Shown piece by piece: positions 1-18,913 of a stretch of 45,745 nucleotides of DNA; position 1 is the first letter of the stretch, and the number at the start of each line of letters is the position of its first letter. Source of the DNA: Sedimentibacter sp. SX930 (GTDB lineage Bacteria > Bacillota > Bacilli > Lactobacillales > Aerococcaceae). The notes beneath the pieces were generated by a model. It saw nothing but the letters and a program-made list of their open reading frames with translations, was not told the DNA's origin and made no database searches. The stretch covers positions 1 to 45,745 of the forward strand of contig MUZD01000014.1 of assembly GCA_002155105.1 (NCBI GenBank). Reading direction: 5' to 3'. The position numbers and the translations under genes were made by a program.

Positions 1-1
1 C

Positions 2-3264: not shown

Positions 3265-3277
3265 TTTTTTCTCCTAT

Positions 3278-5227: not shown

Positions 5228-5315
5228 TTCAAAATAAATTTTTCCCAGATGTATTAAAAGGACCTTTCTAAGAATATCGCTTAAACAGCGGTATGTTATT
5301 AACACTTTAGGACGT

Positions 5316-5924
5316 TTAAGGCAAAAGAAGTTCCTTCTTAATTCGATATACAGTATCCCTGGTTACGTCCGTTTCTTCCGCAATCTTCTTGATGGGTTCT
5401 CCCTTTTTCAGCTTATTCACAATCACGTTGTATGTCATACGGTCACGGGGGTTTTTGGCATCAGCCGCATACTTCACCGGACGGCCCTTGTAGTGGCCCT
5501 TCTTCTTAGCGATCTCAATCCCTTGGCGTTGCTTACGCTTAATTTCTTCCCGTTCATTTTGGGCGGTCCATGAAAGCAACTGCACGATCATGTTCCATAT
5601 CAGCTTCTGCAAATTTGGGTCTCCTAAATCATGGGTAAGAATGGGTAAATTCAATACGATTAAACCAATTTCCATACTATCAAGCATCTGCCCCATCTGA
5701 ACGTTATCATCATAGTTTCGACCTAGTCGATCCAATGACTCCACAATCAAGACATCTTTCTCTCGCAGGAAGCTCAAGGCCTTCTGTAGTTCCTCCCGAT
5801 CTGTCATACTCTTTCCGGACATTTTCTCCTCAAAGATTTTCTCTGGCCCTGCTTTTTTGAGGGCCTCGATCTGTCGGTCCAAATTCTGATCTGTGGTGGA
5901 CACATGCGCATATCCAATTTTCAT
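5316..5924 (-). CDS. Serine recombinase (resolvase family) with Arg8-to-His change
   Basis: A 202-residue small serine recombinase of the Tn3/gamma-delta resolvase type. The N-terminal catalytic domain has 'GYAHVSTTDQNLDRQ' with the nucleophile Ser in the VST motif, 'ESLDRLGR' with the two later catalytic arginines, and 'NEREEIKRKQRQG' at the start of the E helix. The C-terminus is a resolvase helix-turn-helix (EPIKKIAEETDVTRDTVYRI). In almost all family members the first motif is YARVS. Here the Arg, which contributes to catalysis in gamma-delta resolvase, is His (CAT, one transition from CGT). Activity may be reduced or lost. An IS21 end lies just upstream. Confidence 0.85.
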   Translation of the reverse strand: MKIGYAHVSTTDQNLDRQIEALKKAGPEKIFEEKMSGKSMTDREELQKALSFLREKDVLIVESLDRLGRNYDDNVQMGQMLDSMEIGLIVLNLPILTHDLGDPNLQKLIWNMIVQLLSWTAQNEREEIKRKQRQGIEIAKKKGHYKGRPVKYAADAKNPRDRMTYNVIVNKLKKGEPIKKIAEETDVTRDTVYRIKKELLLP

Positions 5925-5963
5925 GTGTTTTTACCCTTCCCCGCTCTTGATTTATTCTACACT

Positions 5964-6056
5964 TGTAATCCACTGAGTATTGCGAACAGATTGAGCCACC
6001 TGTGCGGATGATTGAGCCAGCGAGTGCGATAAATAGAGCCATCCAATGCGAAAGAG
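5964..6056. repeat. IS21-family terminus with three tandem ~21-bp repeats
   Basis: ATTGAGCCA or ATAGAGCCA followed by xxxxTGCG occurs at 5990, 6011 and 6033, spaced 21 and 22 bases. IS21-family elements carry multiple such repeated transposase-binding sites at their ends, and the istB fragment at 6092-6541 points away from it correctly. The outermost TGTAATCC at 5964 may be the element tip (IS21 elements begin 5'-TG), only about 40 bp upstream of the resolvase start. Confidence 0.55.
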
Positions 6057-6059
6057 AAA

Positions 6060-6098
6060 GCCACTGATATTATTTTACCAGTGGCTGCTTTTTATTTT
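6060..6098 (+). terminator. Hairpin with T-rich tail at IS21 end
   Basis: GCCACTG (6060-6066) pairs with CAGTGGC (6079-6085) around a 12-base loop, followed on the plus strand by TGCTTTTTATTTTT. It lies just after the istB stop on the opposite strand and may serve as a bidirectional barrier at the element end. Confidence 0.5.
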
Positions 6099-6541
6099 TC
6101 TAATTGACTATCTATAATGTCAATCGCTAGTTTAACCATTTCATCTGCGGAGGGCTCATCATCATCTATTAGATAGAAAGGAAGTAATTTCCCCACAATT
6201 TCTAACCTGACATCTTCCGGCAAGTACCGATGGAAAAAGTAGCGGGCAATACGATCGAGAATAGCGTCCGCAACGAGCGCTTCACCGAGCTTTTCATACC
6301 ATCCTTCAGGTGCCGTTTGTGAGCAGAATATCGTTGAAGTGGTTTTTAAACGGGACTCAATGATCTCGAACAGAGTTAGTGTATGTTCTTCAGGGAGAGC
6401 CGCCAATAGCCACTCATCAATGATGAATAATTCCACTTTCTTGTATTTCTTAATCAGCTTGCGGAAGCTACCGTCTGCTTCGTTTTTAGCGGCAATAAAT
6501 TCATCTAAGAGCTCTGGAAGACGGACGTATTTTACGTTGTA
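6092..6541 (-). pseudogene. IS21-family IstB-like ATPase, 5'-truncated
   Basis: Reading back from 6541 the frame gives 'VKYVRLPELLDEFIAAK', 'KKVELFIIDEWLL' (Walker B), 'TTSTIFCSQTAPEGWYEKLG' and 'ALVADAILDRI', the canonical C-terminal half of IstB helpers of IS21-family transposition. The Walker A half is missing: the frame is broken at 6541, exactly where a truncated HAD phosphatase begins on the other strand. The last 50 residues after DRI differ from the usual short basic IstB ending. No complete istA is present, so the element cannot move on its own. Confidence 0.75.
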
Positions 6542-6910
6542 TGGGTGAACCTGAACAAATTTTAGAGTTGGAAGAAACGTTGCTAGCTCGCTATCCCGAT
6601 CTGTCTATTGCCATATCTTATCCCTATTATTTAGAAATTATGGCGAAAGGGATTCAAAAAGGCCGAGCTGTTGAAAAGCTGGCGCAGCACTATGGGATTG
6701 CCATGGATGATACGATTTGCTTTCGGAGACAATTTCAATGATTTAGACATGTTGAAAGCCGTTGGACAGGGCTATGTCATGGCTAACGGCACAAAAGAAG
6801 TCCAAAAAGATATTGGTATAGTCACGGCTGATCATAATCATGACGGAATTGCTGTAGTTTTAGAAAAGTTGTTTAGGAATGGGGACCATTCCTTTTTTTG
6901 TTTAAAATGA
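6541..6910 (+). pseudogene. Cof-type HAD phosphatase, truncated and frameshifted
   Basis: The frame from 6541 reads a Cof/YidA-like HAD C-terminus: 'SYPYYLEIMAKGIQKGRAVEKL' supplies the motif III Lys region. One frame over comes 'FGDNFNDLDMLKAVG' (motif IV, GDNxNDxxM) and 'ANGTKEVQKDIGIVTADHNHDGI'. An extra base near 6722 in TTTCGGAGAC separates the two halves. The N-terminal half with the nucleophile Asp is lost at the junction with the istB fragment. The gene was therefore disrupted by the IS21 event and later frameshifted. Confidence 0.8.
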
Positions 6911-6943
6911 CATAAGTCATTAGCACAGATGAGAAACCACACT

Positions 6944-6957
6944 TACAAGCGTTTACA
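6944..6957 (+). promoter_or_regulatory. cre-like site upstream of fructanase
   Basis: TACAAGCGTTTACA fits the catabolite-responsive element consensus TGWAANCGNTNWCA at 12 of 14 positions. It lies 46 bases before the fructanase start codon, a position from which CcpA would be expected to repress the gene when a preferred sugar is present. The fructanase ribosome site AGGAGG is at 6992-6997. Confidence 0.5.
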
Positions 6958-7003
6958 ACATTGATTATACTTATTTTGAAAATATATCATTAGGAGGATT
7001 ATG

Positions 7004-10000
7004 ATGAAAAAAAGTTACCATTACTTATTTATTAGTGGCTTAGTTCTAGGTGGTGTTATGTCAAACACACATGTGGTACAAGCCGAGGAATTTGCTGCGG
7101 CCACAACTAGTGAAGTTGTCACGGACACTTCAATACCGAGTAATCAACAGGTGACAGAAGCAGAGGCGGTTTCTGTACCACCAACAACTGCTATTGCTAC
7201 TGAAAGTGCTTATGAAGAAGAACCTGTGTCAACAGAGTCTACTGGTACGGTAATGACAACAAGCAGTTTAATAAGTGATGCCACTAATCGAACAATAGCA
7301 GCAAATGAAGCAGAGGAGGTTTCTATACCACCAACAACTGCTATTGCTACTGAAAGTGCTTATGAGGAAGAACCTGTGTCAACAGAGTCTACTAGTACGG
7401 TAATGACAACAAGCAGTTTAATAAGTGAGGCCACTAATCGAACAATAGCAGCAAATGCTACTAATACCTCATCTACCTCATCGGATTCGGCGAACTTTGA
7501 GACAAACTTAGAGTTTTCAGATGTCACCGAAAAAGAAGGTTGGCAAGCAGTAAATGATGGGCTTTATAGTAACTCTATAGATAAAGGCGATCATTTTTTA
7601 TATTCGCAGACAACAGGGGAAGATTTTGTTTATAGTGCAGATATCACATTCTTAAAGGATCAGGGTGCTGGTGCGCTTATTTTTAGAGGAGACCAAAATA
7701 CTGACGTAAAGAATGCCTACGCGGTTAATCTAGATGCTAGTAATCATAAAGCTAAAATGTGGCGTTGGGATGATAATCAAGATTATCAATTAATTGATGA
7801 AAAAGATATCGTACCGACAGAAGATAAAAAATATCATTTAAAAGTTGTTGCTTTAGATACTTGGCTGTCTTATTATATCAACGATCAACTGATTGCTAGT
7901 ACAGGGGATTATATTCTTCAAAGAGATGATAAGGGACAAGATACATTTATTCAAGAGGGCTACTTAGGCTTGCTTAACTGGAATGGAGAAATGATTTTCC
8001 AAAATGTTAGGTATACCCCTCTTACGGATGACTCGTCGCCCATCATTGAAGATATTGTTGTGACATCTGATGGGACTGTCGAAGCGAAAGGACAATTTTT
8101 TGAAGAAGAGCCAGCGCATATTCAGTATGTCAAACATGATGCGGACCACATCTCTATTAAAGTATCTCCAAAATCTACTGCAGCCCAAATTACTATTAAG
8201 GATGCTAATGGCACAATCTATTCAGACTTTTCAGATATTCCTTTGAACGTTGGCGCTAACTATCTGACAGTGAATAGTCAAGTAGTTCAACCAGATGGCA
8301 CGGTGGCAGAGGTTTCCTATCAGTTGAATGTACATCGTCGTCAAAGTGATGATATTTATTACAATGAATTATTTAGAGATCAATTCCATTATTCTGTCGA
8401 GGATGGGTGGGGAAATGATCCGAATGGTTTGGTCTATTATAATGGTACTTATCATTTCTTCTATCAATTTTATGATGATAACAAATGGGGACCAATGCAT
8501 TGGGAGCATGCAACTAGTAAAGACTTAATCACCTGGGAAGAGCAGCCGATTGCTTTTTATCCTGATGCCAATGGGACCATGTTTTCAGGAGCGATGGTTA
8601 TTGACGAGAAGAATACCTCAGGTCTATTCCCAGATGGACAAGGTGGTCTAGTAGCACTAATTACAGCTAACGGTAATGGTCAACGGATAAAATTAGCCTA
8701 TAGTACGGACGAAGGCAAGACGTGGACAAAATCTGATAAAATAGCCGCTGATTGGAGTGACGATCCTTTACAGTCTAAAGATTTTCGAGATCCGAAAGTT
8801 TTTCTATGGGAAAATCAATGGTTTATGGTGATTGCAGGCGGACCACTTAGAATTTATTCGTCAGACAATCTTTTAGATTGGAAAGTAGAGTCAACATATG
8901 CTGATTTACATACAGAATGCCCTGATTTATATCCTATTGAAACAGAATCTGGCGAACTGAAATGGGTATTATCTAGAGGTGGTCGTTCCTATAAGGTTGG
9001 TGATTTTAAACAAGTTGATAATAAGTGGGCATATATTCCCGATGCTGATTATCTTAAAGAAGATGGTGTGATGAATTTTGGGAAAGATTCTTATGCAGCA
9101 ATGACCTACTATCTTCAAGATTTTGGAACAGCAACTAATCCTACTATTCCACAATTGACAGAAATCAACTGGATGAACACATGGGATTATTGTAATTTAG
9201 TTGGAGATGCTTTGGGACAAGCATTTAATGGAACATATAATCTAAACCTAAATTTAGGTCTCAAAAAAGATGGCTCTAAGTATGTTCTTACGCAAACTCC
9301 AATTCAGGCATATGAAGGCTTGAGACTTTTAGATGAGTCTATTGTCAAACAAAATGTTTTAGTTGCACAAGATAATCAATTGTTCGCAGACTTTAAAGGA
9401 GATGTTTACGAGATTGTCTCTACCTTTAGACCATCGGCAGATACTAAAAAAGTAGGCTTTAATTTACGTGTTGGAGACGGGGAACAGACCAAAGTTTATT
9501 ATGATTTAGAAACAGAGAAATTGGTTCTTGATCGTAGTCAATCAGGTGTTATTTTAAATAATGCCTTTGCCGAAATAAATAGTCAAACAGTAAAACGTCA
9601 TGATGATGGCAGTATTGAATTGCACATTTTCGTTGATAGAGCTAGTGTAGAAGTATTTGCTCAAGGCAATACAGTAGCTGGAGCAAATCAAATTTTCCCA
9701 GCACCAACCAGTAATGGATTGAGTGTGTTGATAGAGGGAGCAGCAGCCGAAGCAGAGATTGCTTTGTATCCTTTAAACAGTATTTGGTCTGAAAAACAGG
9801 TAGTTACGGATCCGATAGATATTATCTCTCTATCTAAAGCAACAAATCGTTTAAATATTGGGGATGAACTTGAGTTGAAAGCTTATATCATGCCAGGAGA
9901 TGTAGCACAAGATGTGATATGGACAGTAGATGATGCAAGCTTAGTGCAATTACAAGCGCAAGGAAATAGAGTGGTTCTCAGAGGACTAAAATCTGGTCGG

Positions 10001-11077
10001 GCTACTGTAATAGTAACTTCTCAATCAGACCCAACATTATCAAAAACATTCACAGTTAACATATTAGAAGATCAGTTTAAGACTAATCTAGATGATTTGG
10101 TAGCTGTTTCTGGTGATTGGTATAGAGATGGAGAATCTTTAATTGTCTCTAATACAGGAGCCAACGATTACTACATGACTTCTCAACCGGTAGCTGAAAG
10201 TGATTATAGCTTAGACTTAGATGTTAAATATGAAAGAGGCCTTGTTAATATTTTCTTTGCATCAGAAAATAAAGATCCTCGTATGGCTTATTCACTTCAA
10301 TTTGGTGGCAATGATCAAATCAGGCTTTATCGATTTATGGGTGACACTATTGCTGAGGCACCTATGGCTTCTCCAATTAATGACAATAAATTACATCATG
10401 TGAAATTAGTCAAATCTGGAGAAAATTTAAGTGTTCTTGTTGATGAAGTTGAGTATATATCTTACACGTTTGATCAGTTAGAGCCATTTTATCAAGAGGC
10501 ACCTTATGTTGGCGTAGGACTTTGGGATGGAGAAATAGCAATTCAAAATCTGCTGATTACTTATGCAAAAGATGCAGAAAGTAATGATAACTCTCCTATA
10601 GTAGACACATCTAATGAAGCTCCTCAACTACCTACTGATAATGCGCCTCAAGTGCCTGCTGTGCCAACTGCAACTACTTCTCAGGGTACTGTTTCACCAG
10701 TATCAGAAAATAATTCTATAACACATGGTACTGAGATTCTAGCGCATTCAAATAGTTTAGATGTTGAAAATAACAGTAATAATATGACTCAATATGGCAT
10801 ACAAACATATATTTACCAACACGGTTCATTAGAATATAACCAAACTGAAATGAAGTTAAATCAGTCTTCCGAAAATACTTTACCTCAAACAGGTGATTCA
10901 AAAGCTAAATTACAGGATAGTGTAGGTGAAATGAAGTTAAATAAGTCTTCCGTAAGTACTTTACCTCAAACAGGTGATTCAAAAGCTAAATTACAGGGTA
11001 TAGTAGGACTAGTATTGCTATTCTTTGCTAGTCTTCTAGGATTACAGATTTTCCAGAAGAAGCGTAAGAAATGGTAA
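7004..11077 (+). CDS. fruA: Cell-wall-anchored GH32 fructan hydrolase (FruA/levanase type)
   Basis: A secreted exo-fructanase of about 1357 residues. Order: signal peptide (about 1-28, ending VVQAEE); two 50-residue Ser/Thr/Glu-rich repeats; a lectin-like beta domain (about 165-340); GH32 catalytic domain from about 452 with 'WGNDPNGL' (nucleophile Asp), 'FRDPKVF' (transition-state stabiliser) and 'TECPDLY' (acid/base Glu); a Big_2 domain (about 934-1022); a second lectin-like domain (1025-1188); a linker; two LPQTG motifs; a membrane segment and a KKRKKW tail. This is the layout of streptococcal FruA, which releases fructose from levan, inulin and sucrose. ATG 7004 has better spacing (6 bases) from AGGAGG than ATG 7001. 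The gene looks richer in A/T than its neighbours and ends in its own terminator, consistent with transfer. Confidence 0.93.
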   Translation: MKKSYHYLFISGLVLGGVMSNTHVVQAEEFAAATTSEVVTDTSIPSNQQVTEAEAVSVPPTTAIATESAYEEEPVSTESTGTVMTTSSLISDATNRTIAANEAEEVSIPPTTAIATESAYEEEPVSTESTSTVMTTSSLISEATNRTIAANATNTSSTSSDSANFETNLEFSDVTEKEGWQAVNDGLYSNSIDKGDHFLYSQTTGEDFVYSADITFLKDQGAGALIFRGDQNTDVKNAYAVNLDASNHKAKMWRWDDNQDYQLIDEKDIVPTEDKKYHLKVVALDTWLSYYINDQLIASTGDYILQRDDKGQDTFIQEGYLGLLNWNGEMIFQNVRYTPLTDDSSPIIEDIVVTSDGTVEAKGQFFEEEPAHIQYVKHDADHISIKVSPKSTAAQITIKDANGTIYSDFSDIPLNVGANYLTVNSQVVQPDGTVAEVSYQLNVHRRQSDDIYYNELFRDQFHYSVEDGWGNDPNGLVYYNGTYHFFYQFYDDNKWGPMHWEHATSKDLITWEEQPIAFYPDANGTMFSGAMVIDEKNTSGLFPDGQGGLVALITANGNGQRIKLAYSTDEGKTWTKSDKIAADWSDDPLQSKDFRDPKVFLWENQWFMVIAGGPLRIYSSDNLLDWKVESTYADLHTECPDLYPIETESGELKWVLSRGGRSYKVGDFKQVDNKWAYIPDADYLKEDGVMNFGKDSYAAMTYYLQDFGTATNPTIPQLTEINWMNTWDYCNLVGDALGQAFNGTYNLNLNLGLKKDGSKYVLTQTPIQAYEGLRLLDESIVKQNVLVAQDNQLFADFKGDVYEIVSTFRPSADTKKVGFNLRVGDGEQTKVYYDLETEKLVLDRSQSGVILNNAFAEINSQTVKRHDDGSIELHIFVDRASVEVFAQGNTVAGANQIFPAPTSNGLSVLIEGAAAEAEIALYPLNSIWSEKQVVTDPIDIISLSKATNRLNIGDELELKAYIMPGDVAQDVIWTVDDASLVQLQAQGNRVVLRGLKSGRATVIVTSQSDPTLSKTFTVNILEDQFKTNLDDLVAVSGDWYRDGESLIVSNTGANDYYMTSQPVAESDYSLDLDVKYERGLVNIFFASENKDPRMAYSLQFGGNDQIRLYRFMGDTIAEAPMASPINDNKLHHVKLVKSGENLSVLVDEVEYISYTFDQLEPFYQEAPYVGVGLWDGEIAIQNLLITYAKDAESNDNSPIVDTSNEAPQLPTDNAPQVPAVPTATTSQGTVSPVSENNSITHGTEILAHSNSLDVENNSNNMTQYGIQTYIYQHGSLEYNQTEMKLNQSSENTLPQTGDSKAKLQDSVGEMKLNKSSVSTLPQTGDSKAKLQGIVGLVLLFFASLLGLQIFQKKRKKW
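7157..7456 (+). repeat. Two tandem 150-bp repeats in fructanase gene
   Basis: A 150-bp unit beginning GAAGCAGAGG occurs at 7157 and again at 7307, nearly identical at DNA level (for instance 'CCAACAACTGCTATTGCTAC' in both). It encodes two 50-residue copies of a Thr/Glu-rich surface spacer. Slippage or recombination could change the copy number. Confidence 0.85.
10847..11008 (+). repeat. Tandem 81-bp duplication doubling the LPQTG sorting motif
   Basis: GAAATGAAGTTAAAT occurs at 10847 and, as GAAATGAAGTTAAAT/A, at 10928, an 81-bp (27-residue) period. Each copy ends with TLPQTGDSKAKLQ. Only the second LPQTG is directly followed by a hydrophobic segment and a basic tail, so it is probably the functional sortase site. 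Confidence 0.85.
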
Positions 11078-11097
11078 ATTTGTTACAGTATTATTTA

Positions 11098-11121
11098 GGA
11101 GAGCCTCAGGCTCTCCTTTTT
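11098..11121 (+). terminator. Rho-independent terminator of fructanase
   Basis: GGAGAGCC (11098-11105) and GGCTCTCC (11109-11116) form a perfect 8-bp stem with a 3-base loop followed by TTTTT, 21 bases after the fructanase stop. Confidence 0.9.
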
Positions 11122-11156
11122 GGTTAATTATATATTTTTATAGGGAAGGAAAAAGG

Positions 11157-11316
11157 ATGACATTTCTAAAAAAATGGTTACTATTATTAGTGTCGCTGAT
11201 GGTAATGGTGATTGATTTGTCTCGGTGCTCTATTTTAATCAGAAAATTGATAGCACAACGACAAGTCAGTTGCGTGTAGGAACAACCTACATAACCATGA
11301 ATAATCCTTTTAAGGT
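11157..11316 (+). pseudogene. Broken sugar ABC-transporter substrate-binding lipoprotein (N-terminal relic)
   Basis: ATG 11157 after AAAAAGG opens a lipoprotein-type signal (MTFLKKWLLLLVSLMVMVIDLSRC). The lipobox Gly is Arg, and the frame ends at 11279. One frame over, 'QKIDSTTTSQLRVGTTYITM' followed by NNPF continues. 'VGxTYxTMNNPF' is the typical first strand of periplasmic-binding-type sugar receptors. So a small shift near 11215-11235 broke the gene, and everything after about residue 50 is gone. It lay directly behind the fructanase, suggesting a lost fructose or oligosaccharide uptake system. Confidence 0.6.
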
Positions 11317-11405
11317 GTGTACTTTTTCTCTGTAATATTGTGTAGGAAAGTCTTGCAAAACACAATAGATACCGATTCACAAATTAATTTTTAGGAGATG
11401 ATAAA

Positions 11406-12101
11406 ATGGAATATAACTGCTACGGGCAACCTATCGGACCAAGTTTAAAAGAAAGTTGTTTTAGAGAACTGAATGCAACAATAATAGAAGGAAACACTTG
11501 CGATTTAATCCATGCATCAGAGGGCCATGCACACGTATTCTATACCGATATTTTCAAAAAAGGACTTACGCCGCCAGATTGGACGTATCTGCCCTTCTCA
11601 TCCTTTCCATCAGAAGAAGCGTTTGCCGATATCTTCAACAAGACTTTTTTGTCCGAAGACCCTTACTTTTTTGGAATTTGGGATAAAGAACATTCAAAAG
11701 TGCTGGGCACGCTTGCGCTAATGCGTAACGATCGACAAAATGGCGTAATCGAAGTAGGTTATGTAATATATAGCCAACAATTGAAGAAAAGCATTCAAGC
11801 TACCGAGGCCCAGTATTTGTTGGCAAAGTATGTTTTTGAGAATTTAGGGTATAGAAGATACGAATGGAAATGCGATAGTCTAAACGAGCCTTCTAAATTA
11901 GCTGCACAGAGGTTAGGATTTGAATACGAAGGCACATTCCGGCAGGCAGTTGTATACAAAAATAGAAACCGCGATACATCGTGGTTCTCAATGCTTGATT
12001 GTGAATGGGAACGGAACAAAAAAAGGCTTGAAAAATGGTTATCGCCGGGTAATTTTGACCAAGACGGAAAACAGCTGCTTTCTTTAAACAACCTAAAATA
12101 A
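11406..12101 (+). CDS. RimL-type GNAT N-acetyltransferase
   Basis: A 231-residue acetyltransferase of the RimJ/RimL/YdaF type. Visible elements are 'PYFFGIWDKEHSKVLGTLAL' (strand 4), 'NGVIEVGYVIYSQQLKKS' in the acetyl-CoA loop region, 'ATEAQYLLAKYVFENLGYRR' (helix) and 'NEPSKLAAQRLGFEYEGTFR' (C-terminal signature). Related proteins acetylate protein N-termini or small molecules. The length and the 'PIGPSL' N-terminus match a common bacterial subgroup of 210-235 residues. ATG 11406 follows GGAG by 8 bases. It stands alone with a strong terminator. Substrate unknown. Confidence 0.85.
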   Translation: MEYNCYGQPIGPSLKESCFRELNATIIEGNTCDLIHASEGHAHVFYTDIFKKGLTPPDWTYLPFSSFPSEEAFADIFNKTFLSEDPYFFGIWDKEHSKVLGTLALMRNDRQNGVIEVGYVIYSQQLKKSIQATEAQYLLAKYVFENLGYRRYEWKCDSLNEPSKLAAQRLGFEYEGTFRQAVVYKNRNRDTSWFSMLDCEWERNKKRLEKWLSPGNFDQDGKQLLSLNNLK

Positions 12102-12103
12102 TT

Positions 12104-12150
12104 GGTAACATCCAAACCGACCATTAAGGTTTGGATGTTACCATTTTTCA
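12104..12150 (+). terminator. Strong terminator after GNAT gene
   Basis: GGTAACATCCAAACC (12104-12118) and GGTTTGGATGTTACC (12128-12142) form a perfect 15-bp stem with a 9-base loop, followed by ATTTTTCATTTTTTT. It starts 3 bases after the stop codon. Confidence 0.92.
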
Positions 12151-12330
12151 TTTTTTTGATAAGCCCCTTTCGGGCGTGCAGGAAGGATCTCTTTGTTTGG
12201 TCAGATTAGTGCACTGAAACCCTAGCAAGGGATTTTCTTCATGTCTGCATTACGTAAAAAAGATAATATTGCGAACATTCTCTTGAGTTGTGACCATGAC
12301 TGTCTAACTTAGGTACCCAGACAAAATTAA

Positions 12331-12359
12331 AAACTGATTATGAGTCCCGTAATCAGTTT
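12331..12359 (-). terminator. Hairpin, probable terminator of lysE gene
   Basis: AAACTGATTA (12331-12340) pairs with TAATCAGTTT (12350-12359). On the minus strand it is followed by TTTTTAATTTT. It is about 90 bases beyond the stop of the exporter gene. Apart from this hairpin I see no gene between 12150 and 12446. Confidence 0.6.
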
Positions 12360-12446
12360 TATTATTTGTATTGAATGTAATGCTTCTATTTGTATTACCG
12401 CATACCACCGCTCATTTTTTAAGACTTGTGCGATAAAATTCCACAC

Positions 12447-13034
12447 TCACTTTAGCATACTATAAATACACTCCAGCAATGAAGCTGCCAGAATAATATT
12501 GATGAGCCTAAAATGTTTTTGATACAACCTTTGTATCATCATACCCATTCCAATCCAAGTGATTGTGGCAATGGTTCCGATTGTGGCAACAATCAGTTCA
12601 AACAGCAAAAGATCAAAAAAAGAAGTGTAGTAATCCGTTATATATCCGGTCAGAGCGGTGATACCAAACAAATAGATTTTCACGTTCACAAATTGGAGCA
12701 AGAATCCTTTAAAAAAAGAGGCGGATTTTTCAGCACTTTCTGACTCAGGCTTGCTTACCGCGATATGAATGGCGAGCCATAGAATATACGCAGCACCAAT
12801 ATATTTCATTATGCCAAGGATATTCGGCATAAAAGCACTCACACCATAGACAAACAGTGCACAGATAATTTGAACTACATAATACCCTGCAAAGATGCCA
12901 AAAAATAAAGAGCGGCCTTTTTTATATCCATAATTTGTGACTGTATTCAATGCTAAAATATTCCCCGGCCCCGGAGTAAACGCGTTAATTATCGCATAAA
13001 TAAAGAAATTTCCTAATACATATCCAGGCATCAT
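12447..13034 (-). CDS. LysE/RhtB-family amino acid exporter
   Basis: A 195-residue protein with six predicted membrane segments and the family motif 'NAFTPGPGNILALNTVTNYG' near the N-terminus, as in LysE, RhtB and EamB. 'QFVNVKIYLFGITAL' in the middle corresponds to the conserved 'NPKxxLF' region but with variation (NVKIYLF). Such proteins export amino acids or derivatives by secondary transport. The gene directly follows the LysR regulator on the same strand, with a 106-base gap that holds a dyad operator, so the regulator probably controls it. Two adjacent ATG codons follow GAAAGGAAG. Confidence 0.88.
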   Translation of the reverse strand: MMPGYVLGNFFIYAIINAFTPGPGNILALNTVTNYGYKKGRSLFFGIFAGYYVVQIICALFVYGVSAFMPNILGIMKYIGAAYILWLAIHIAVSKPESESAEKSASFFKGFLLQFVNVKIYLFGITALTGYITDYYTSFFDLLLFELIVATIGTIATITWIGMGMMIQRLYQKHFRLINIILAASLLECIYSMLK

Positions 13035-13100
13035 TTTCTTCCTTTCTGTTTTTTTAGACTATAACACAAACCCTTTTTGTATAGGTTATTCCGATATTTT

Positions 13101-13136
13101 ATGTTTTTCCATAGTTTAAAACTATGATAAAAACAT
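13101..13136 (-). promoter_or_regulatory. Dyad operator with LysR-type T-N11-A core
   Basis: ATAGTTTAAAACTAT at 13111-13125 has 7-bp arms and contains T-N11-A. Flanking ATGTTTTT and TAAAAACAT extend the symmetry to 36 bp. It lies 67 bases upstream of the exporter start and only 4 bases after the LysR stop, the expected place for the regulator to act on the exporter. Confidence 0.6.
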
Positions 13137-13140
13137 AAAA

Positions 13141-14040
13141 TTACATTCTGTATTGTCGCAAAGCCTCAGTATACGTTACCCCCAATTCTGATAGCGCTTG
13201 CCCTTTGTTTAAAATGTACCCAATACGCATTTGTTCATTCTCTGCAAGTGGAATTGCCACGATAGAATCGCCATGCAGATATTTCGGGAAAATTCCGCTG
13301 GAAATCGTATAACCGTCCAAACCAATCATGAGGTTCACGATTGCCGCACGATCACTGACTTTAATACTCTTTTCTGCAGGTTCCATACTGAAAAGTTCCT
13401 CTGCAAAATAAGTGGAATTGTAATTGCCTTGAAGAAAGCTTAAGCGAGGGTAAGGCTCTAAATCTTTAAGGGTGACAACACCCCTTTTTGCCAATGGATG
13501 ATCCGTTCTCAAAAATACATGAGGGCTAACGCTAAATAACTCATAAAAGTCCAAATTATTTTTCTCTAACACTTTTCGCATGATGGTTTCATTGCTGTTG
13601 CTTATGAAGAGTATGCCTACATCGCTAAAACGATTCTTCACATCATCAATGATTTGAAATGTCTGTGTTTCATTTAAGATAAATTCAAAACGTTCCTGTC
13701 CGAACTGTTGCACCATTTCCACAAACGCATTAGCCGTGAACGTGTAGTGCTGTGTTGAAACACAAAATCGCTGTTTTGCAGGAACATTAAAAACATATTT
13801 TGATTCCAGCAAATCCATCTGTTGCACTACTTGTCTTGCATAGCCTAAGAATTCCATGCCTTCTTTTGTCAAGGCAATTCCCGTCCGACTTCGCGTAAAA
13901 ATACTGAACCCGATTTCTTTCTCCACCTCTTTAATCGCATTTGAAAGGCTCGGTTGTGAAATGAATAATCCCTTTGCCGCTTCTGTAATTGACCCTTTCT
14001 CCGCAACTGTGAGTAAATATTTCAAATGTTGAAATGTCAT
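13141..14040 (-). CDS. LysR-type transcriptional regulator
   Basis: A 299-residue LTTR. The winged helix-turn-helix occupies residues 1-60 ('FQHLKYLLTVAEKGSITEAA', 'ISQPSLSNAIKEVEKEIGFS', 'FTRSRTGIALTKEG'), followed by the linker helix and a periplasmic-binding-like effector domain to the C-terminus. Length is normal for the family. It is transcribed towards the LysE-type exporter, separated by the dyad at 13101-13136. LysR/LysE pairs usually sense the exported amino acid. The inducer here is unknown. Confidence 0.9.
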   Translation of the reverse strand: MTFQHLKYLLTVAEKGSITEAAKGLFISQPSLSNAIKEVEKEIGFSIFTRSRTGIALTKEGMEFLGYARQVVQQMDLLESKYVFNVPAKQRFCVSTQHYTFTANAFVEMVQQFGQERFEFILNETQTFQIIDDVKNRFSDVGILFISNSNETIMRKVLEKNNLDFYELFSVSPHVFLRTDHPLAKRGVVTLKDLEPYPRLSFLQGNYNSTYFAEELFSMEPAEKSIKVSDRAAIVNLMIGLDGYTISSGIFPKYLHGDSIVAIPLAENEQMRIGYILNKGQALSELGVTYTEALRQYRM

Positions 14041-14206
14041 ACTGTTCCCAACTTCTTTCCTTAGCTTTTCTGGCCTTATAATATTCTATTCTAGCACATA
14101 CGACTGCGCTTACTAATTGCTCATTAGGAAATGTTAGGTTAATATTTCAACAATTATTGTTGTGTGGATTATAATGGAATTATCTGGACAACAAGGAGGA
14201 ATTTGT

Positions 14207-14602
14207 TTGAAAAAGTTAATCTTATGCTTTCTCACTACGGCTCTGCTGAGTGGCTGCGGCGCCGCCAGTTCTCAGGCGAGCGTGAATAGTGAGGTTGCGG
14301 AAAATGAAGAAGCAACTGTACTGTATACAGGAACGGTTATCGACAGCGGCGAAACGCATGAAGGTGGTTTGTTCGTGTCTGATTTAGTTCCGGTAGAATC
14401 TTCGGAGGCTGCTTCTTTCGATGAAGTCATCCTGTTGATGGAAGGTGTTCCCTTGACCGACTTATCCTCCGGTGAAAATATACCTCTGTCAGCATTAGAA
14501 AAAGGCGACAACGTAACAGTCACCTTAGTCGAGCATGCACCCACCACGATGTCCATACCCCCGCAGATTCCCGGCATGGGGATTGTAAAAGTCGAAAAAT
14601 GA
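14207..14602 (+). CDS. Small lipoprotein of unknown function
   Basis: The start is TTG 14207, seven bases after a strong AAGGAGG; upstream frame extension lacks any site. The 131-residue product has a lipoprotein signal with lipobox 'LLSGC' (Cys at about residue 17) followed by an acidic Ser/Ala linker and a small beta-rich domain ('TGTVIDSGETHEGGLFVSDL' through 'LEKGDNVTVTLVE'). This layout resembles DUF3221-like or OB-type secreted lipoproteins, but I cannot assign a family. Monocistronic, with a strong terminator directly behind. Confidence 0.75.
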   Translation: MKKLILCFLTTALLSGCGAASSQASVNSEVAENEEATVLYTGTVIDSGETHEGGLFVSDLVPVESSEAASFDEVILLMEGVPLTDLSSGENIPLSALEKGDNVTVTLVEHAPTTMSIPPQIPGMGIVKVEK

Positions 14603-14615
14603 AATGCTCAATCCA

Positions 14616-14670
14616 AACACCCGATACGACCCCAACCAGATTTTGGTCAGGGTCGTACCGGGTGTTTTTT
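14616..14670 (+). terminator. Terminator of lipoprotein gene
   Basis: ACACCCGATACGACCC (from 14617) pairs with GGGTCGTACCGGGTGT (14650-14665), one mismatch, followed by TTTTT. Confidence 0.9.
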
Positions 14671-14863
14671 CAAGAAATTTATAAAGAGTCAATAGACGAT
14701 GCGGTCCAATTTATTCAGCGATATTTTCCATATTAAGGAGAAAAATTGATTGAGCAGCAGCTGTCTCAATTTTGTATTTGAAACAGCTCTTTATGATTAA
14801 GATACATATCTTCACATTGGACAAGTACCTTTGATAGTTCATGCATTTGCAAATAAATACCCG

Positions 14864-16132
14864 TTACGCTACTGGTGGTGTTCCTTCAGCATTTGATACA
14901 ACTGCATCGATCTGGACTAAAGCATCCATAGGCAGCGCTGAAACTGCAAACGTTGTCCGTGCAGGAATACCGCTTGGGAAAAAGGTTGTATAAACTTCAT
15001 CTACAGCTGCCATGTCAGCATAATTTTTAAGAAGTACGGTTACTTTGACCACATCGTCCATCGCGTGATCGATACTCTCTACAATCGCCTTGATATTTTT
15101 CAAGCACTGTTCAGCCTGCTCTTTCACTCCACCGGCTACCATTTTACCAGTTTTTGGATCCAGCGGTAATTGAGCGGAAAGATGATTGTAATGAGAGAAA
15201 GCTACCGTTTGTGTAGACAGTGCGTCTTTGGGCGCATCTTCCGTATTTCTGGCTTCTATGATGAGTCCGTGTCTGTCTTCTACTGCTTGCGGAGGTGTAC
15301 CATCTCCGTGTGACACCACCGCTTCGATTTGTACCAAAGCATCCAGCGGTAATCCTGACGCCACAACGATTGTCCGGGCTGGGACATAGGCTACGGCTCT
15401 GGCAATAGCTGAGTCCGGGAAAAATGTTGTATAAACTTCATTTACAACTTCCATATCCGATAGGTCGTTAAGGAAGATATTTATTTTAACAATATCGTCA
15501 AAAGGAACATCCATACTTTCTAAAATTGCCTTTATGTTCTTTAAGCACTGTCCAGCCTGTTCTTTCACTCCACCGGCTACCACTTCGCCTGTTCCTGGAT
15601 CCATCGGTAATTGGGCGGAAAGATGATTGTAATGGGAAAAAGCTACCGATTGTGCAGATAGAGGACTCACTGGCGCATTCAACGTATTATTTGTAACCTT
15701 TATGAGGTCGCCTGCTTGCGGTGCGTTCGGTATTGTACCTTCGCCATGTGAGACAAGTGCCTCCATTTGCACCAAAGCATCCATAGGCAGCGCTGAAACC
15801 GCAAGCGTTGTCCGTGCGGGAACACCGTTTGGGAAAAATGTTGCGTAAACTCCATCTACAGCATCCATATCGGCACTGTTCTTAAGGAATATGGTGACTG
15901 CAACAACATCATCCATATCATGGGCAACACTCTCAACGATTGCCTTAATATTTTCCAGGCATTGTTCGGCCTGCTCTTTCGCTCCACCGGCTACCATTTT
16001 GCCAGTTTTTGGATCCAGCGGTAATTGAGCAGAAAGATGATTGTAATGAGAAAACGCTACCGATTGTGTAGATAGAGTACTTTCGGGTGCATTTTCTGTA
16101 TTTCTTGCCAATACTGCGTTGTAGCCACTCAT
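14864..16132 (-). CDS. Three-domain Rid (YjgF/YER057c/UK114) fusion protein
   Basis: One 422-residue chain contains three complete Rid domains at about 1-135, 145-282 and 288-420. Each begins with a 'LSTQSVAFSHYNHLSAQLP' type block and ends with a PART strand (Arg107, Arg252, Arg391, equal to E. coli RidA Arg105). RidA is normally a 125-residue homotrimer with active sites between subunits, so this chain could fold as a single-chain trimer. All three domains have Gln or a shifted residue where RidA has Glu120, and Thr/Ile replaces Cys107. Domain 3 has Asp in place of the next Glu, and domain 2 carries an extra 8 residues before PART (about 241-248). Domains 1 and 3 are almost identical even at DNA level, suggesting recent duplication. 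It diverges from a canonical ridA across 309 bases. Confidence 0.9.
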   Translation of the reverse strand: MSGYNAVLARNTENAPESTLSTQSVAFSHYNHLSAQLPLDPKTGKMVAGGAKEQAEQCLENIKAIVESVAHDMDDVVAVTIFLKNSADMDAVDGVYATFFPNGVPARTTLAVSALPMDALVQMEALVSHGEGTIPNAPQAGDLIKVTNNTLNAPVSPLSAQSVAFSHYNHLSAQLPMDPGTGEVVAGGVKEQAGQCLKNIKAILESMDVPFDDIVKINIFLNDLSDMEVVNEVYTTFFPDSAIARAVAYVPARTIVVASGLPLDALVQIEAVVSHGDGTPPQAVEDRHGLIIEARNTEDAPKDALSTQTVAFSHYNHLSAQLPLDPKTGKMVAGGVKEQAEQCLKNIKAIVESIDHAMDDVVKVTVLLKNYADMAAVDEVYTTFFPSGIPARTTFAVSALPMDALVQIDAVVSNAEGTPPVA

Positions 16133-16371
16133 TATATTTGTATCCCCTTTTAGATAAATTTTTTAGCTTGCATCAGCACCTCATTAAAGCGGTTACCATA
16201 GCATCCACTATAGCAAGCTGGCTTTTGTTTGAGTATGTGTACCTTGCGCGTTTTTTACACCCACTCTGTACAATGGGCACAAAATCGGGATCGGTAAAGA
16301 AATATCCTCTGGTCAAAGTTCCATATCGAAAGTGACGAAGGAAATAGTTGGTTGATGCTATAGCGCTAATA

Positions 16372-16398
16372 TTGACTCCGAAGCAAATATGCTATAAT
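16372..16398 (+). promoter_or_regulatory. Sigma-A-like promoter of ridA
   Basis: TTGACT (16372-16377) and TATAAT (16393-16398) with a 15-base spacer, 44 bases before the ridA start. AAAGGAGA lies just before the ATG. The remaining 16133-16371 stretch between the divergent Rid genes shows no further gene. Confidence 0.6.
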
Positions 16399-16441
16399 CA
16401 AACAGAAACCGTCAACAAAAAAACCAAAGGAGACTATCATC

Positions 16442-16819
16442 ATGAAGAGACAAGCTTATACCGCAAAAGACGTCATGAGTTCAGGACCTTATTCCCATGC
16501 GATAGACGCTGGAGAATATATATACGTATCCGGACAGACCGCCAAGAATTCTTTGACGCTGGAAAAACAGGATTTGAACATTCAGGAGCAGACGGAAGAA
16601 TGCTTCAAGAATATCAACAGGATTTTGAAAGAATTGAATCTTACAGAAGCCAACGTTGTAAAGGCAAATGTCTATCTTACGGGCATGAAGCATTTCGAGG
16701 GTATGAACGAAGTGTATAAAACAAAATTTACCGAGCCTTATCCTGCCAGGACTTGTGTCGCAGTTTTCGAATTACCGCTCGGTGCGGATGTGGAAATAGA
16801 AGTCGTGGCAAAAAGATAA
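16442..16819 (+). CDS. ridA: RidA-family enamine/imine deaminase
   Basis: A 125-residue stand-alone Rid protein of normal length. It has 'GPYSHAIDAGEYIYVSGQT' with the conserved Tyr and Ser, and 'PARTCVAVFELPLGADVEIE' with Arg (E. coli 105), Cys (107) and Glu (120) all kept, so it fits the active RidA subfamily that hydrolyses reactive 2-aminoacrylate and other imines made by PLP enzymes. Start follows AAAGGAGA. It diverges from the three-domain Rid gene, so the locus has both a canonical and a non-canonical version. Confidence 0.9.
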   Translation: MKRQAYTAKDVMSSGPYSHAIDAGEYIYVSGQTAKNSLTLEKQDLNIQEQTEECFKNINRILKELNLTEANVVKANVYLTGMKHFEGMNEVYKTKFTEPYPARTCVAVFELPLGADVEIEVVAKR

Positions 16820-16861
16820 CGTTCATTCGTTCTTTACGGGGTAAATATAAACAAAGCAAAA

Positions 16862-16923
16862 AACACCTCGACTATAATGAACTGAAGCCCGCTCGTGTGC
16901 TTATTCATTATAGTCGAGGTGTT
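16862..16923. repeat. Perfect 20-bp inverted repeat
   Basis: AACACCTCGACTATAATGAA (16862-16881) and its exact reverse complement (16904-16923) flank 22 bases. There is no T-run after it, so a plain terminator is not the obvious reading, though it follows ridA by 42 bases. It could be a terminator working with the A-run before it on the opposite strand, or the ends of a small mobile remnant. Confidence 0.7.
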
Positions 16924-16936
16924 GTTGATTGAATCG

Positions 16937-17029
16937 TTTATCATTTTCCGCCAGAAGACTTCCACCTCTAGGAATGAAAAGGGCACAGCCCAATGAGTAG
17001 GTGGGAGATGGATGGCGGAAAATGATAAA
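16937..17029. repeat. Nested inverted repeat / structured RNA element
   Basis: TTTATCATTTTCCGCCA (16937-16953) and its exact reverse complement (17013-17029) enclose a second pair (CCACCT / AGGTGG) and an innermost GGGC-ACA-GCCC hairpin. The result is a three-level rod of 93 bases. It lies between convergent ridA and the triosephosphate isomerase gene. It resembles a MITE or a structured IS end (IS200/IS605 type) more than a terminator. Identity unknown. Confidence 0.6.
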
Positions 17030-17093
17030 TGGTACTACTCTGTACACCCGTCGGAAATTTTTTTGCTCTTTCAAATAATAGGGTCTCATTTTC

Positions 17094-17792
17094 TTATTTA
17101 TTATTCTCATTTGATGCTTTTACAGTCGCCTCAACCATATCCCTCAGCATTTTTTTGGGGTCTTTTGCCTTCACTATACCACTGGTACAGCCAACTCCAT
17201 CTGCTTGCAGCAGAATTGTTCTGTAGACATCATCTGCCGTGCTGATTCCAGCTGCTTGCATAACTAATACATTCAGATTAAGACTCTTAACAGCTTCGAT
17301 TGTTTCTTTAATATAGCTCTCATCGCTTGTTTTACCGGTACCAATTAAGTCTGAAGGTTCGCACAAAATAATATCGGGACTTAGCATTGTGATTGCCTTT
17401 GCCTCCGCAATCGAATCTGCACAGACAATTGTTATGATTTCAAGTTCAGCTGCGCGCTTAATTGCTTTAGCCAAACCATTCAAAGTCAAGGGACGTTCAG
17501 CGTGATTTAGAAATACTGCACGTGCACCGGCTTCATAAAGTGATTCGGGTAACACGTGACCCATTCCTTTATCCGGATAAATACCATCCAGATGCTGCGC
17601 TGTCACAATAATATTTTTGGAATTTGATGAAACAGCTGCAATATCGGCGAAGGGCGCGGTTACAAAAATTGAAATCGGAAATTCTTCTGCTAGTGTATCT
17701 GCTTCTCTAACTAGTTCCAATAATTTTTCTCCAAACAAAAAGGATTTGGGGTTAAAAACAAAGAATGGTGTGCGGATATTAGTTTTTGCCAT
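17094..17792 (-). CDS. Archaeal-type triosephosphate isomerase homologue
   Basis: A 232-residue TIM barrel. Catalytic residues are visible: Asn/Lys in 'FVFNPKSFLFG', His in 'FLNHAERPLTLNGLAKAIK', Glu in 'CEPSDLIGTGKTSDESYI', and the phosphate-binding 'GCTSGIVKAKDPKKMLRDM'. The blocks 'TAQHLDGIYPDKGMGHVLPE' and 'AAGISTADDVYRTI' and the length of 225-235 residues match the short archaeal-type enzyme rather than the ~250-residue bacterial TpiA. It is therefore likely a paralogue with another phosphorylated sugar substrate (for instance a tetrulose phosphate) or a backup isomerase. ATG follows GAAAGGAG. It is convergent with ridA. Confidence 0.8.
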   Translation of the reverse strand: MAKTNIRTPFFVFNPKSFLFGEKLLELVREADTLAEEFPISIFVTAPFADIAAVSSNSKNIIVTAQHLDGIYPDKGMGHVLPESLYEAGARAVFLNHAERPLTLNGLAKAIKRAAELEIITIVCADSIAEAKAITMLSPDIILCEPSDLIGTGKTSDESYIKETIEAVKSLNLNVLVMQAAGISTADDVYRTILLQADGVGCTSGIVKAKDPKKMLRDMVEATVKASNENNK

Positions 17793-17977
17793 GACTTTCT
17801 CCTTTCATTTACCAAATGCTTGGCTTGTAGCCGGTTGCGCCCTACAGTGTTAATTATAGGGCCCTAGATTATTAAACGCCAATTCTAACTTCTATATAAT
17901 ATATGTACCTGCTATTCTGTACTTGAGAACTTTGCTCTTCCAAATGGATATAGTCTATCTCCATCAATGTCTGCAAC

Positions 17978-18027
17978 AAAAATAGGACAAGACTGAAATC
18001 ATTGTGGTTTCGTCCTGTCCTATTTTT
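17978..18027 (-). terminator. Terminator downstream of iron permease gene
   Basis: AAAAATAGGACA (17978-17989) pairs with TGTCCTATTTTT (18016-18027), with further pairing inside. The T-run is at the end on both strands. It lies 41 bases after the permease stop on the minus strand. Confidence 0.85.
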
Positions 18028-18067
18028 ACTTTGCTGCACATCTATATAGGTTGCCATCGGATTTATG

Positions 18068-18913
18068 TTATTGCGCGAGCGAATTTAATTTACTCGCTTC
18101 TTTTTTTATTTCCCTGTGCCAAATGTAGAAAAGCGAACCCGTGTAGAGGTATTGCATAATAAATTGAAGGATTTCCGGTTTGGAATACCATCCGAACAGG
18201 ACATACAGAGGCAAGCCAAGCAGTCCTTCTTTATGGTAAAAAATAGTCTCCGATAGGTCAAAGGCTTTAATAAATAGCGGGCTCTCGCTGGATAACAGGT
18301 TCATGGAGCCAAGAGCGGATAGCCCTTCATGAATACCGTAACCAAGCAAAAAACCGGCTTGGAGGATAAGATAGGCCAAGGTGATGTTGAACAGAATCCT
18401 TAAATTGACTTTCACCAGCGAATGATTGATCAGGACTGCCAACACTAAAGCTGCTGTAATCCCCGCAAACAGGGCTACGATGGCGTACTGTCCGGCAAAA
18501 GTGAAGATCGCAACCTCTACGCCCTCACGCGCGACCATTATAAAAGCAACGCTGGCAATCCCGAAGGCAGACAGATTTTGGCTGACACTGCTTTCCACAG
18601 TTGAGACCATGTTTCGGCCGTGCTTAATCATCCAGTAGATGAACGTAGTCACCAATGCCAACGCAACGAAACTTGCTCCGCTCTCCCATAATTTTGCCAC
18701 TTGATCCATTTTGTCGATCGCTTTGGACAGGATGTAAAGAATGCCCCCGATTCCAAGCGAAGCAACAATGCCGCTGACTGTCCCGTAGTAAACATATTTC
18801 CGCAAAGACTCATTCTTGCTTTTCCTCAAATACTGAAGAATGATGCTGACGATCAGGAATGCTTCCAGGCCTTCTCTAAAACCCATGACAAACGCGGGCA
18901 GAAATGTATCCAT
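18068..18913 (-). CDS. FTR1-family high-affinity iron permease
   Basis: A 281-residue protein with seven hydrophobic segments. Both signature motifs of the FTR1/EfeU family are present: 'GFREGLEAFLIVSI' (REGLE) near the N-terminus and 'MVAREGVEVAIFTFAG' (REGVE) after the third segment. The glutamates carry iron through the membrane. There is no EfeO or EfeB partner next to it, so it is a single permease gene. A Fur-like box lies about 50 bases upstream, and a terminator follows, so the gene is probably induced by iron limitation on its own. Confidence 0.9.
   Translation of the reverse strand: MDTFLPAFVMGFREGLEAFLIVSIILQYLRKSKNESLRKYVYYGTVSGIVASLGIGGILYILSKAIDKMDQVAKLWESGASFVALALVTTFIYWMIKHGRNMVSTVESSVSQNLSAFGIASVAFIMVAREGVEVAIFTFAGQYAIVALFAGITAALVLAVLINHSLVKVNLRILFNITLAYLILQAGFLLGYGIHEGLSALGSMNLLSSESPLFIKAFDLSETIFYHKEGLLGLPLYVLFGWYSKPEILQFIMQYLYTGSLFYIWHREIKKEASKLNSLAQ

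Follow-up and report, generated by a model that had tools for sequence, protein, structure and literature searches.

A three-domain Rid protein of the 3x-RidA class with a conserved, family-specific signature and non-canonical active-site positions

The 45,745-nucleotide stretch of DNA analysed here (the window; contig MUZD01000014.1 of assembly GCA_002155105.1, Sedimentibacter sp. SX930) encodes on its minus strand, at positions 14864-16132, a 422-residue protein with three consecutive Rid domains in a single open frame ending in a stop codon. The protein is genuine and intact, and it belongs to '3x-RidA', a class that is already known but uncharacterised. Niehaus et al. (2015, PMC4433059) named this class, whose members, such as EF_0115, have three tandem-fused RidA domains and were presumed there to be trimers with covalently linked units. 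The covalent trimer proposed in a first-pass annotation of the window was thus already in print as a presumption. As far as the searches made reach, what is new is a signature of SHYN and Gln residues, an asymmetry between the domains, the spread of the gene and recombination between its repeats; the passages of the 2015 paper that deal with the class are limited to its name, a single example and the idea of a trimer, with nothing on SHYN/Gln, the insertion in domain 2, the second linker, recombination or spread. The strict conservation of the triple-domain proteins (hereafter triples), together with their altered active sites, suggests that they have a separate job of their own, and the chain is probably a closed single-chain pseudo-trimer with an asymmetric, non-canonical site.

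The Pfam model Ribonuc_L-PSP (247 bits, E 3.5e-74) and the NCBIfam model TIGR00004 (287 bits) each match the protein in three stretches, in agreement with the three Rid domains described in the first-pass annotation. That annotation had also placed a PART arginine in each domain, at residues 107, 252 and 391; the arginines are there, but because PART starts at residues 105, 251 and 390 they are R107, R253 and R392. They correspond to the conserved arginine of RidA (R105 in E. coli, R107 in human), whereas Tyr17 (Tyr21 in human) and Glu120 (Glu122 in human) are missing from the window protein. The reported loss of the Glu120 equivalent is accounted for by Gln122, Gln268 and Gln407, and the acid that follows is Glu124, Glu270 and, as had been seen for domain 3, Asp409. 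Likewise, the translation contains the eight-residue insertion before PART in domain 2, where 12 residues separate FF from PAR, versus 4 in domains 1 and 3. The statement that domains 1 and 3 are nearly identical in DNA was too strong, since their cores share 83.0% of 330 bases and 81.8% of 110 residues; domain 2 is 74.3% identical in DNA to domain 1 and 76.1% to domain 3.

One scan of a contig collection returned 197 confirmed relatives, and the best 80 of these were kept. In all of the best 80 the match starts at residue 1-5 of the query and ends at residue 420-422, at 74-91% identity and in open frames. Loci and genomes are cited below by our L and G numbers. A set of 86 sequences leaves out L002-L005, which are the window gene again, and L008 and L009, taken as L026 and L027 at equal scores; a set of 91 non-identical triples was obtained by including L106-L115 and dropping five rows identical to others (L010, L106, L107, L108 and L109). 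Left uncounted were L014 (a one-domain derivative), L116-L124 (the same genes again) and L141-L143 (later additions). The 30 single-domain Rids used for comparison were the best-matching ones at hand and are not an even sample of the family.

Each domain of all 91 triples contains the SHYN motif, which occurs in none of the 30 single-domain proteins; the Tyr of SHYN is found in two of them. At the Glu120 position (E. coli numbering), Gln occupies 273 of 273 sites in the triples, versus Glu in 30 of 30 singles. Three further positions, each invariant in the singles, are changed to different degrees: Gly31 is Ala in 90, 90 and 87 of the 91 triples (domains 1, 2 and 3, respectively), Tyr17 is kept in 71, 0 and 7, and Asn88 is kept in 10, 87 and 7. 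In the window protein Tyr17 is replaced by Ser and Gly31 by Ala in all three domains, and Asn88 is retained in domain 2 only. The PART arginine, also present in all 30 singles, is found in 81, 83 and 89 of the 91 triples, so that SHYN and Gln are conserved more strictly than this essential residue. Within the 86-sequence set, 69 proteins have all three arginines, 16 have one replaced (by Lys in two) and 1 has two replaced. Across the 91 triples, 96 of 422 columns are unchanged. The ligands of acetate in salmon RidA are Tyr21, Arg107 and Glu122 in human numbering (PMC7311433), so that no site of any triple retains all three of these ligands. However, replacing the Glu120 equivalent by Ala is reported to have affected S. 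enterica RidA little (PMC4433059), and Arabidopsis RidA retains at least a quarter of its activity with E180A, compared with 2.2% with R165A (PMC4960622); Gln alone is thus no proof of lost hydrolysis. Since Tyr17, Asn88, the insertion and the linker differ between the domains in fixed ways, the data support the earlier proposal that the three sites are not equivalent.

Two family-specific elements, the insertion of domain 2 and linker 2 (between domains 2 and 3), are conserved more strictly than the domain cores. Residues P239, D240, I243, A244, R245 and Y249 of the insertion, and S274 to Q282, R287 and H288 of linker 2, are identical in 91 of 91 triples, even in members with 62-68% identity. 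Taken together, the insertion and linker 2 are invariant in 17 of 30 columns and the domain cores in 72 of 361 (one-sided Fisher test, p 2.8e-5); for the window protein and the four members that diverge most, a set of five, the counts are 21 of 30 and 130 of 361 (p 3.0e-4). Both p-values overstate the case, because these columns were chosen after the alignment had been viewed. The insertion and linker 2 (SHGDGTPPQ..EDRHG) are also stricter than the catalytic arginine, and the two elements may form one asymmetric site.

An AlphaFold2 prediction from a 59-row alignment is compatible with a single-chain trimer. Mean predicted local distance difference test (pLDDT) scores of the five models were 72.4-81.0, and the best (81.0) had a predicted template modelling score (pTM) of 0.88, which indicates that the predicted placement of the domains relative to one another is confident; pLDDT fell below 50 at residues 1-3, 131-140, 277-279, 281-293 and 417-422. 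In a Foldseek search, RidA crystal chains matched the model with target-normalised TM scores of 0.81-0.93 among the 50 matches listed, as expected for the Rid (chorismate-mutase-like) fold; each match spans the length of one domain, the domain matched being unspecified. A salt bridge between K136 and E182 joins the subunits of the Arabidopsis RidA trimer (PMC4960622). The equivalent Lys position (K78) is Lys or Arg in 87, 91 and 91 of the 91 triples and the acid position (E124) is Glu or Asp in all 91 for each domain. Domains 2 and 3 of the window protein keep the pair, and domain 1 has Ala for Lys. Direct fusion of domains is plausible, given that in salmon RidA-1 the strand at the N terminus of each subunit pairs with the C-terminal segment of its neighbour (PMC7311433). 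We take the covalent pseudo-trimer of the first-pass annotation as probable: the predicted domain placement and the Lys/acid pairs of domains 2 and 3 support it, and the Ala of domain 1 speaks against it. Pairing of R78 with D409 was considered as proof of ring order and was not used, because the pair occurs in 80 of 91 triples and the exceptions do not covary.

Triples occur mainly in Bacillota and also in Pseudomonadota and Bacteroidota, in carriers that include Trichococcus, Desulfosporosinus, Bacillaceae, Sporosarcina, Clostridia, Pseudomonas, Nitrosomonas, Neisseriaceae and Flavobacterium. Counting the window's own genome, a full-length match was found in 8 of 60 genomes (and a partial one in 1 more), and a triple was found in 9 of 398 Bacillota genomes in an even draw; 3 of 119 Pseudomonas genomes, including the one at the centre of the query, carry it. 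A search of related genomes for the fusion, proposed in the first-pass annotation, thus found it in these phyla and, among 13 genomes of the window's genus, in 5; of the others, 1 has a one-domain form and 7 have none (2 of these 7 are less than 65% complete). Enterococcus faecalis has a full-length homologue, V2I04_RS13160 in NZ_CP143580.1 (65% identity over residues 1-422, with the same insertion and linker), which we infer corresponds to EF_0115 of E. faecalis V583. EF0115 is listed in a table of the E. faecalis pathogenicity island (PMC3084688), and its sole mention in the relevant part of another study is a mutation in the EF_0115/EF_0116 intergenic region of one evolved line (PMC6834293). 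A link to selenium was rejected: the gene in question, EF2574 (Endoribonuclease L-PSP; PMC2432076, PMC7701990), has another locus number and belongs to a different gene cluster. Full-text searches of the open-licence literature yielded neither a later study of these triples nor any function assigned to them since their naming in 2015.

The gene is under purifying selection, with whole-gene ratios of nonsynonymous to synonymous substitution rates (dN/dS) of 0.05-0.35 in eight pairs; one single-domain comparison, domain 3 of L030/L029, gave 1.2, with a dS of just 0.024 behind that value. It also appears to have moved horizontally between phyla as a lone gene, a view supported by base composition and by tree placement. 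Guanine plus cytosine (G+C) content is 43.0 and 46.0% in two Pseudomonas genes versus 56-59% in their flanks, 40.5% in Nitrosomonas versus 50.3 and 43.8%, and, in two Neisseriaceae, 51.5% versus 59.4 and 50.3% and 49.6% versus 55.3 and 57.1%. In a quick protein tree, whose placements may be disturbed by repeat conversion, Nitrosomonas groups with Peptococcaceae and a Bacillota bin (support 86), and the other four Pseudomonadota group with the window's Trichococcus clade, L099 and L114 (support 96); T. palustris falls elsewhere. The single-contig genome G580, of the same species as the window, has no triple. When its DNA was compared with window pieces 1-14800 and 16133-18900, it matched 17978-18900 (94%), 1-133 and, at 5338-6541, a stretch resembling a resolvase and IS21. 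Further matches were short, and several of them, 73-84% identical (for example within 2913-3530), are possibly paralogous. The triple therefore lies in a strain-variable region, since 134-17977 is largely unmatched in G580. In the plasmid collection PLSDB, homologues that cover 98-100% of the query at 63-68% identity were found in 12 records, 10 of them from Vibrio; homologues in this collection lie on large replicons of Vibrio and Photobacterium as well as on seven Vibrio parahaemolyticus plasmids of 84-104 kb. We considered and rejected a phage origin: among the 15 listed of 22 matches in a phage collection, OR846589.1 is full length, PQ520166.1 covers residues 126-422 and the other 13 resemble joined single-domain Rids (33-46%, in three pieces); one more record, a third in the 60-80% identity band, lies outside the 15 listed. 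OR846589.1 is a 139-kb 'Enterococcus phage' record whose triple is 65% identical; its sequence could be bacterial, or host DNA that a phage carries.

To ask how the triple arose, we used a phylogeny of the individual domains, as the first-pass annotation had proposed, comprising 72 domains of 24 triples and 14 single-domain Rids over 123 columns. The tree leaves 47 of 83 inner branches open and came with a program warning of long branches meeting, but it separates triples from singles (SH-aLRT 99) and groups domains by position, with domain 2 as one group (98) and with 2 label changes for domain 1 and 3 for domain 3; the exceptions are domains 1 and 3 of the window and of T. collinsii, which fall outside their groups. 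This pattern supports descent of the family from one triplication. Using domain 3 alone as query against the 398 Bacillota genomes (E 1e-22), we obtained matches in 39 genomes, among which there was no single-domain INTERMEDIATE and no single-domain ancestor bearing the signature: matches of at least 60% identity were the three domains of the 9 triple carriers only, and every single-domain match was at most 50% identical.

Domains 1 and 3 have a median protein identity of 67% over the 86 triples. At 14 columns diagnostic for domain 1 or domain 3, domain 1 of the window protein is of domain 3 type at 9 and its domain 3 is of domain 1 type at 4, versus 0 and 0 switched columns in T. palustris (L041). 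Gene conversion between domains 1 and 3 in the window's clade is the simplest account, and it explains the likeness that had been read as near identity, a likeness local to this clade. The two-way exchange is seen in window 14864-16132, L007, L026 and L027, and is absent from T. palustris (L041, L010). The one-domain form of the congener G010 (L014; G010:C84:13605-14018) is an intact frame of 137 residues. It occupies the same place as the triple, because its surroundings match on both sides: L007 is 97.6% identical over the DNA that runs from inside the gene to ∼1.5 kb upstream, and window 14138-15253 is 89.5% identical to the DNA from the gene downstream. The gene is mostly of domain 1 type up to about base 355 and mostly of domain 3 type thereafter, which fits a recombination between domains 1 and 3 that removed 855 bases, or else a collapse in a draft assembly.

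The triple is a solo gene and not part of an operon. Neighbourhoods were compared at 85 loci, with flanks of at most 6-9 kb that were often shorter, many being ended by a contig edge, and with mechanically called rather than annotated open reading frames (ORFs); the triple of L087 was lost to an overlapping ORF. A conserved neighbourhood was rejected, as no neighbour cluster other than the triple itself occurs in more than 10 of these loci, and a Pfam search of 111 neighbours from 35 representative loci (the very long ORF L081:7965-13277 being left out of 112) found no family in more than 4. In 77 of the 78 loci with both neighbours, there is no same-strand ORF within 100 nt. The single-domain ridA said to adjoin the triple was found beside it in the window, and the further claim that the triple is kept next to an active RidA was not supported: such a neighbour occurs in 2 of 85 loci (the window and L050), and in the congeners G002 and G004 a single-domain Rid lies on the same contig 11-13 kb away, so that the adjacency looks incidental. 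Another Rid is present in 15 of 16 carrier genomes, with a score of only 39-49 bits in 7 of these, and no other Rid was found in G105 (90% complete).

Some possible regulatory features were noted as leads, namely a promoter-like site and a leader hairpin. In six clostridial loci (L053, L062, L081, L084, L091 and L094) the divergent neighbour belongs to one cluster, and 3 of 3 tested members have MerR and GyrI-like domains. TTGAC/TANNNT with a 19-base spacer, a wide spacing typical of MerR-controlled promoters, occurs in 10 of 81 upstream regions. A terminator-like hairpin is present in the leader in 6 of the 81 (20 mononucleotide shuffles gave a mean of 0.2 and a maximum of 2). These hairpins, each with a T-run, lie ∼70-80 bases before the start codon in L035, L039, L051, L059 and L086 and at 129 in L067; their hosts are some Bacillaceae and Sporosarcina, and they are possibly attenuators. 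No known RNA was found upstream of the triple in the window or in 11 related loci at Rfam gathering scores, the sole matches in the related loci being two Bacillaceae-1 RNAs downstream in L032.

What might such a protein do? We tentatively favour, with confidence somewhat short of even, a single-chain pseudo-trimer with non-canonical clefts and one asymmetric site that handles a reactive metabolite other than 2-aminoacrylate. The chain would fold as a single-chain RidA trimer with three interdomain clefts, made non-canonical by Gln for Glu120, by Ala nearly always for Gly31, by loss of Tyr17 from domain 2 and mostly from domain 3, and by a new SHYN hairpin. With the domains linked covalently, one of the ring's faces would be free to depart from the other two, and the insertion and linker 2 could jointly form one asymmetric site above a cleft whose PART arginines would still bind small carboxylates. 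Acting alone, the protein would most likely hydrolyse or capture a reactive small metabolite and not the usual 2-aminoacrylate; a lone gene found across phyla under purifying selection is as expected of a self-sufficient protective trait. Several points weigh against this interpretation. Linker 2 is poorly predicted (residues 277-279 and 281-293), so that its position over a cleft is a guess; Ala stands at the K78 position of domain 1 in all four rows of the window's clade; and closure of the ring is suggested by pTM and sequence rather than read from coordinates. Retention of the PART arginine at 253 of 273 sites would fit plain imine hydrolysis as well, and literature searches turned up no activity for any 3x-RidA. 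Flavobacterium shows little G+C contrast and Neisseriaceae a mixed picture, and the MerR link, whose promoter motif has no shuffled control, was observed in Clostridia alone and not beside the window gene. A bolder version, which we hold possible but with somewhat less confidence, is that the triples are not covalent RidA enzymes but a distinct, horizontally spread one-gene system directed at a reactive compound. Triplication would have set one face of the ring free, and PDSxIARxxxY and SHGDGTPPQxxEDRHG would make a single new asymmetric site, either catalytic or for binding a metal or anion (His and acidic residues abound in linker 2); the SHYN/Gln clefts would be scaffold or accessory.

The arginine counts bring in the most serious of the remaining explanations, an ordinary imine deaminase in which a covalent RidA trimer hydrolyses the same 2-aminoacrylate or 2-imino acids and the changed residues are neutral. 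We think this rather unlikely. All three window domains have the arginine, which matters most in Arabidopsis RidA (R165A, PMC4960622) and also in S. enterica (PMC4433059), activity survives Ala at the Glu120 equivalent in both (PMC4433059, PMC4960622), and the triple could be the only RidA of G105 and of the 7 carriers whose other Rid is weak. Yet SHYN, Gln, the insertion and linker 2 are all stricter than the arginine, at least one arginine is replaced in 17 of 86 triples, and nearly all carriers have another Rid. The first-pass annotation had suggested that the protein possibly binds rather than hydrolyses, and a binding protein or sensor, whose three clefts hold a carboxylate and whose asymmetric linker signals to a partner, would suit the change of two of the three salmon acetate ligands (Tyr21 and Glu122, human numbering) with the arginine mostly kept, as well as a linker that is invariant though predicted with low confidence; it is improbable, since no conserved neighbour offers itself as partner and apparent lone transfer between phyla would be hard for a protein that depends on one. 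We give very little credence to a general stress chaperone (holdase) with a covalent ring for stability only, modelled on N-chlorinated E. coli RidA: chaperone activity is reported for E. coli RidA modified by hypochlorous acid (PMC4284807), but such a protein would hardly need 96 invariant columns or an invariant linker. Finally, an assembly artefact or decaying tandem copies might be suspected from the 74-83% DNA identity of the repeats and the one-domain derivative in G010. The many separate full-length copies exclude the artefact that the first-pass annotation had named as fatal to its reading, and this explanation has practically no weight, since the triple frame is open at the 80 loci kept as well as in G001 and G051, both single-contig genomes, and the gene is under purifying selection.

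Comparison with known systems places the protein closest to 3x-RidA, with which it shares three tandem-fused domains in one chain. With the RidA subfamily (YjgF/YER057c/UK114; TIGR00004/PF01042) the triples share domain sequence, fold, the PART arginine and the Lys/acid pair of the trimer, but they differ in the replacement of Tyr17, Gly31 and Glu120, in Asn88 being kept mostly in domain 2 only and in having three domains per chain. RutC belongs to the same superfamily, and its model matches the window protein at 147 bits, below the curated cut-off of 169.1. According to the subfamily description in PMC4433059, both Arg and Glu are retained in Rid1-3, whereas Rid4-7 have Glu without Arg, the reverse of the triples, which have Arg without Glu. 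A Pandoravirus YjgF-like protein (BFVD A0A2U7UCQ5) was matched by Foldseek over 436 columns, with TM of 0.28-0.30 and 12% identity, which amounts to local fold only.

Table 1. Features of the three-domain gene and its single-domain neighbour (positions in the window; residues of the 422-residue protein).
Feature	Position	Strand	Residues	Basis or remark
3x-RidA gene	14864..16132	-	1-422	422 aa; homology over nearly all of 1-422 in 80 kept contig loci
Domain 1 core	15746..16111	-	8-129	Profile matches and alignment
Linker 1, GEGTIPNAPQxGDLIK type	15698..15745	-	130-145	4/16 columns identical in 91/91 triples
Domain 2 core	15314..15697	-	146-273	Profile matches and alignment
Domain 2 insertion region, PDSAIARAVAY	15386..15418	-	239-249	Conservation; short helix in the model at 242-247
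Linker 2, SHGDGTPPQAVEDRHGLII	15257..15313	-	274-292	11/19 columns identical in 91/91 triples
Domain 3 core	14891..15256	-	293-414	Profile matches and alignment
SHYN motif, domain 1	16040..16051	-	28-31	91/91 triples, 0/30 singles
SHYN motif, domain 2	15626..15637	-	166-169	91/91 triples
SHYN motif, domain 3	15185..15196	-	313-316	91/91 triples
PART arginine, domain 1	15812..15814	-	R107	R in 81/91 triples
PART arginine, domain 2	15374..15376	-	R253	R in 83/91 triples
PART arginine, domain 3	14957..14959	-	R392	R in 89/91 triples
Gln at Glu120 position, domain 1	15767..15769	-	Q122	91/91 triples
Gln at Glu120 position, domain 2	15329..15331	-	Q268	91/91 triples
Gln at Glu120 position, domain 3	14912..14914	-	Q407	91/91 triples
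Single-domain ridA (neighbour)	16442..16819	+		125 aa; Pfam/NCBIfam; not part of a conserved pair

Elsewhere in the window, a gene at 17094-17792 (-) is like triosephosphate isomerase, passing PRK04302 (182 bits, cut-off 132) and failing TIGR00419 tim (87.5, cut-off 130.6). Between it and ridA, at 16937-17029, is a 31-nt inverted repeat; 16937-17018 is 95% identical to G580 755659-755740 and is perhaps a small dispersed element. The gene at 7001-11077 (+) encodes 1358 residues with GH32 N- and C-terminal, 3-keto-disaccharide hydrolase-like, cadherin-like and Gram_pos_anchor domains, and contains tandem repeats of 150 nt (7157-7456) and 81 nt (10846-11007).

Rid proteins are among the most widespread enzymes of metabolite damage. 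The fixation of 96 of 422 columns in 91 sequences, together with seeming passage between phyla, argues that the triple form has some specific role within this family. A single-chain ring with natural asymmetry would permit one site to be altered singly, which is impossible in a homotrimer, so that the role of each Rid cleft would become testable, and the one-domain derivative in a Trichococcus congener offers a natural comparison for the triple.

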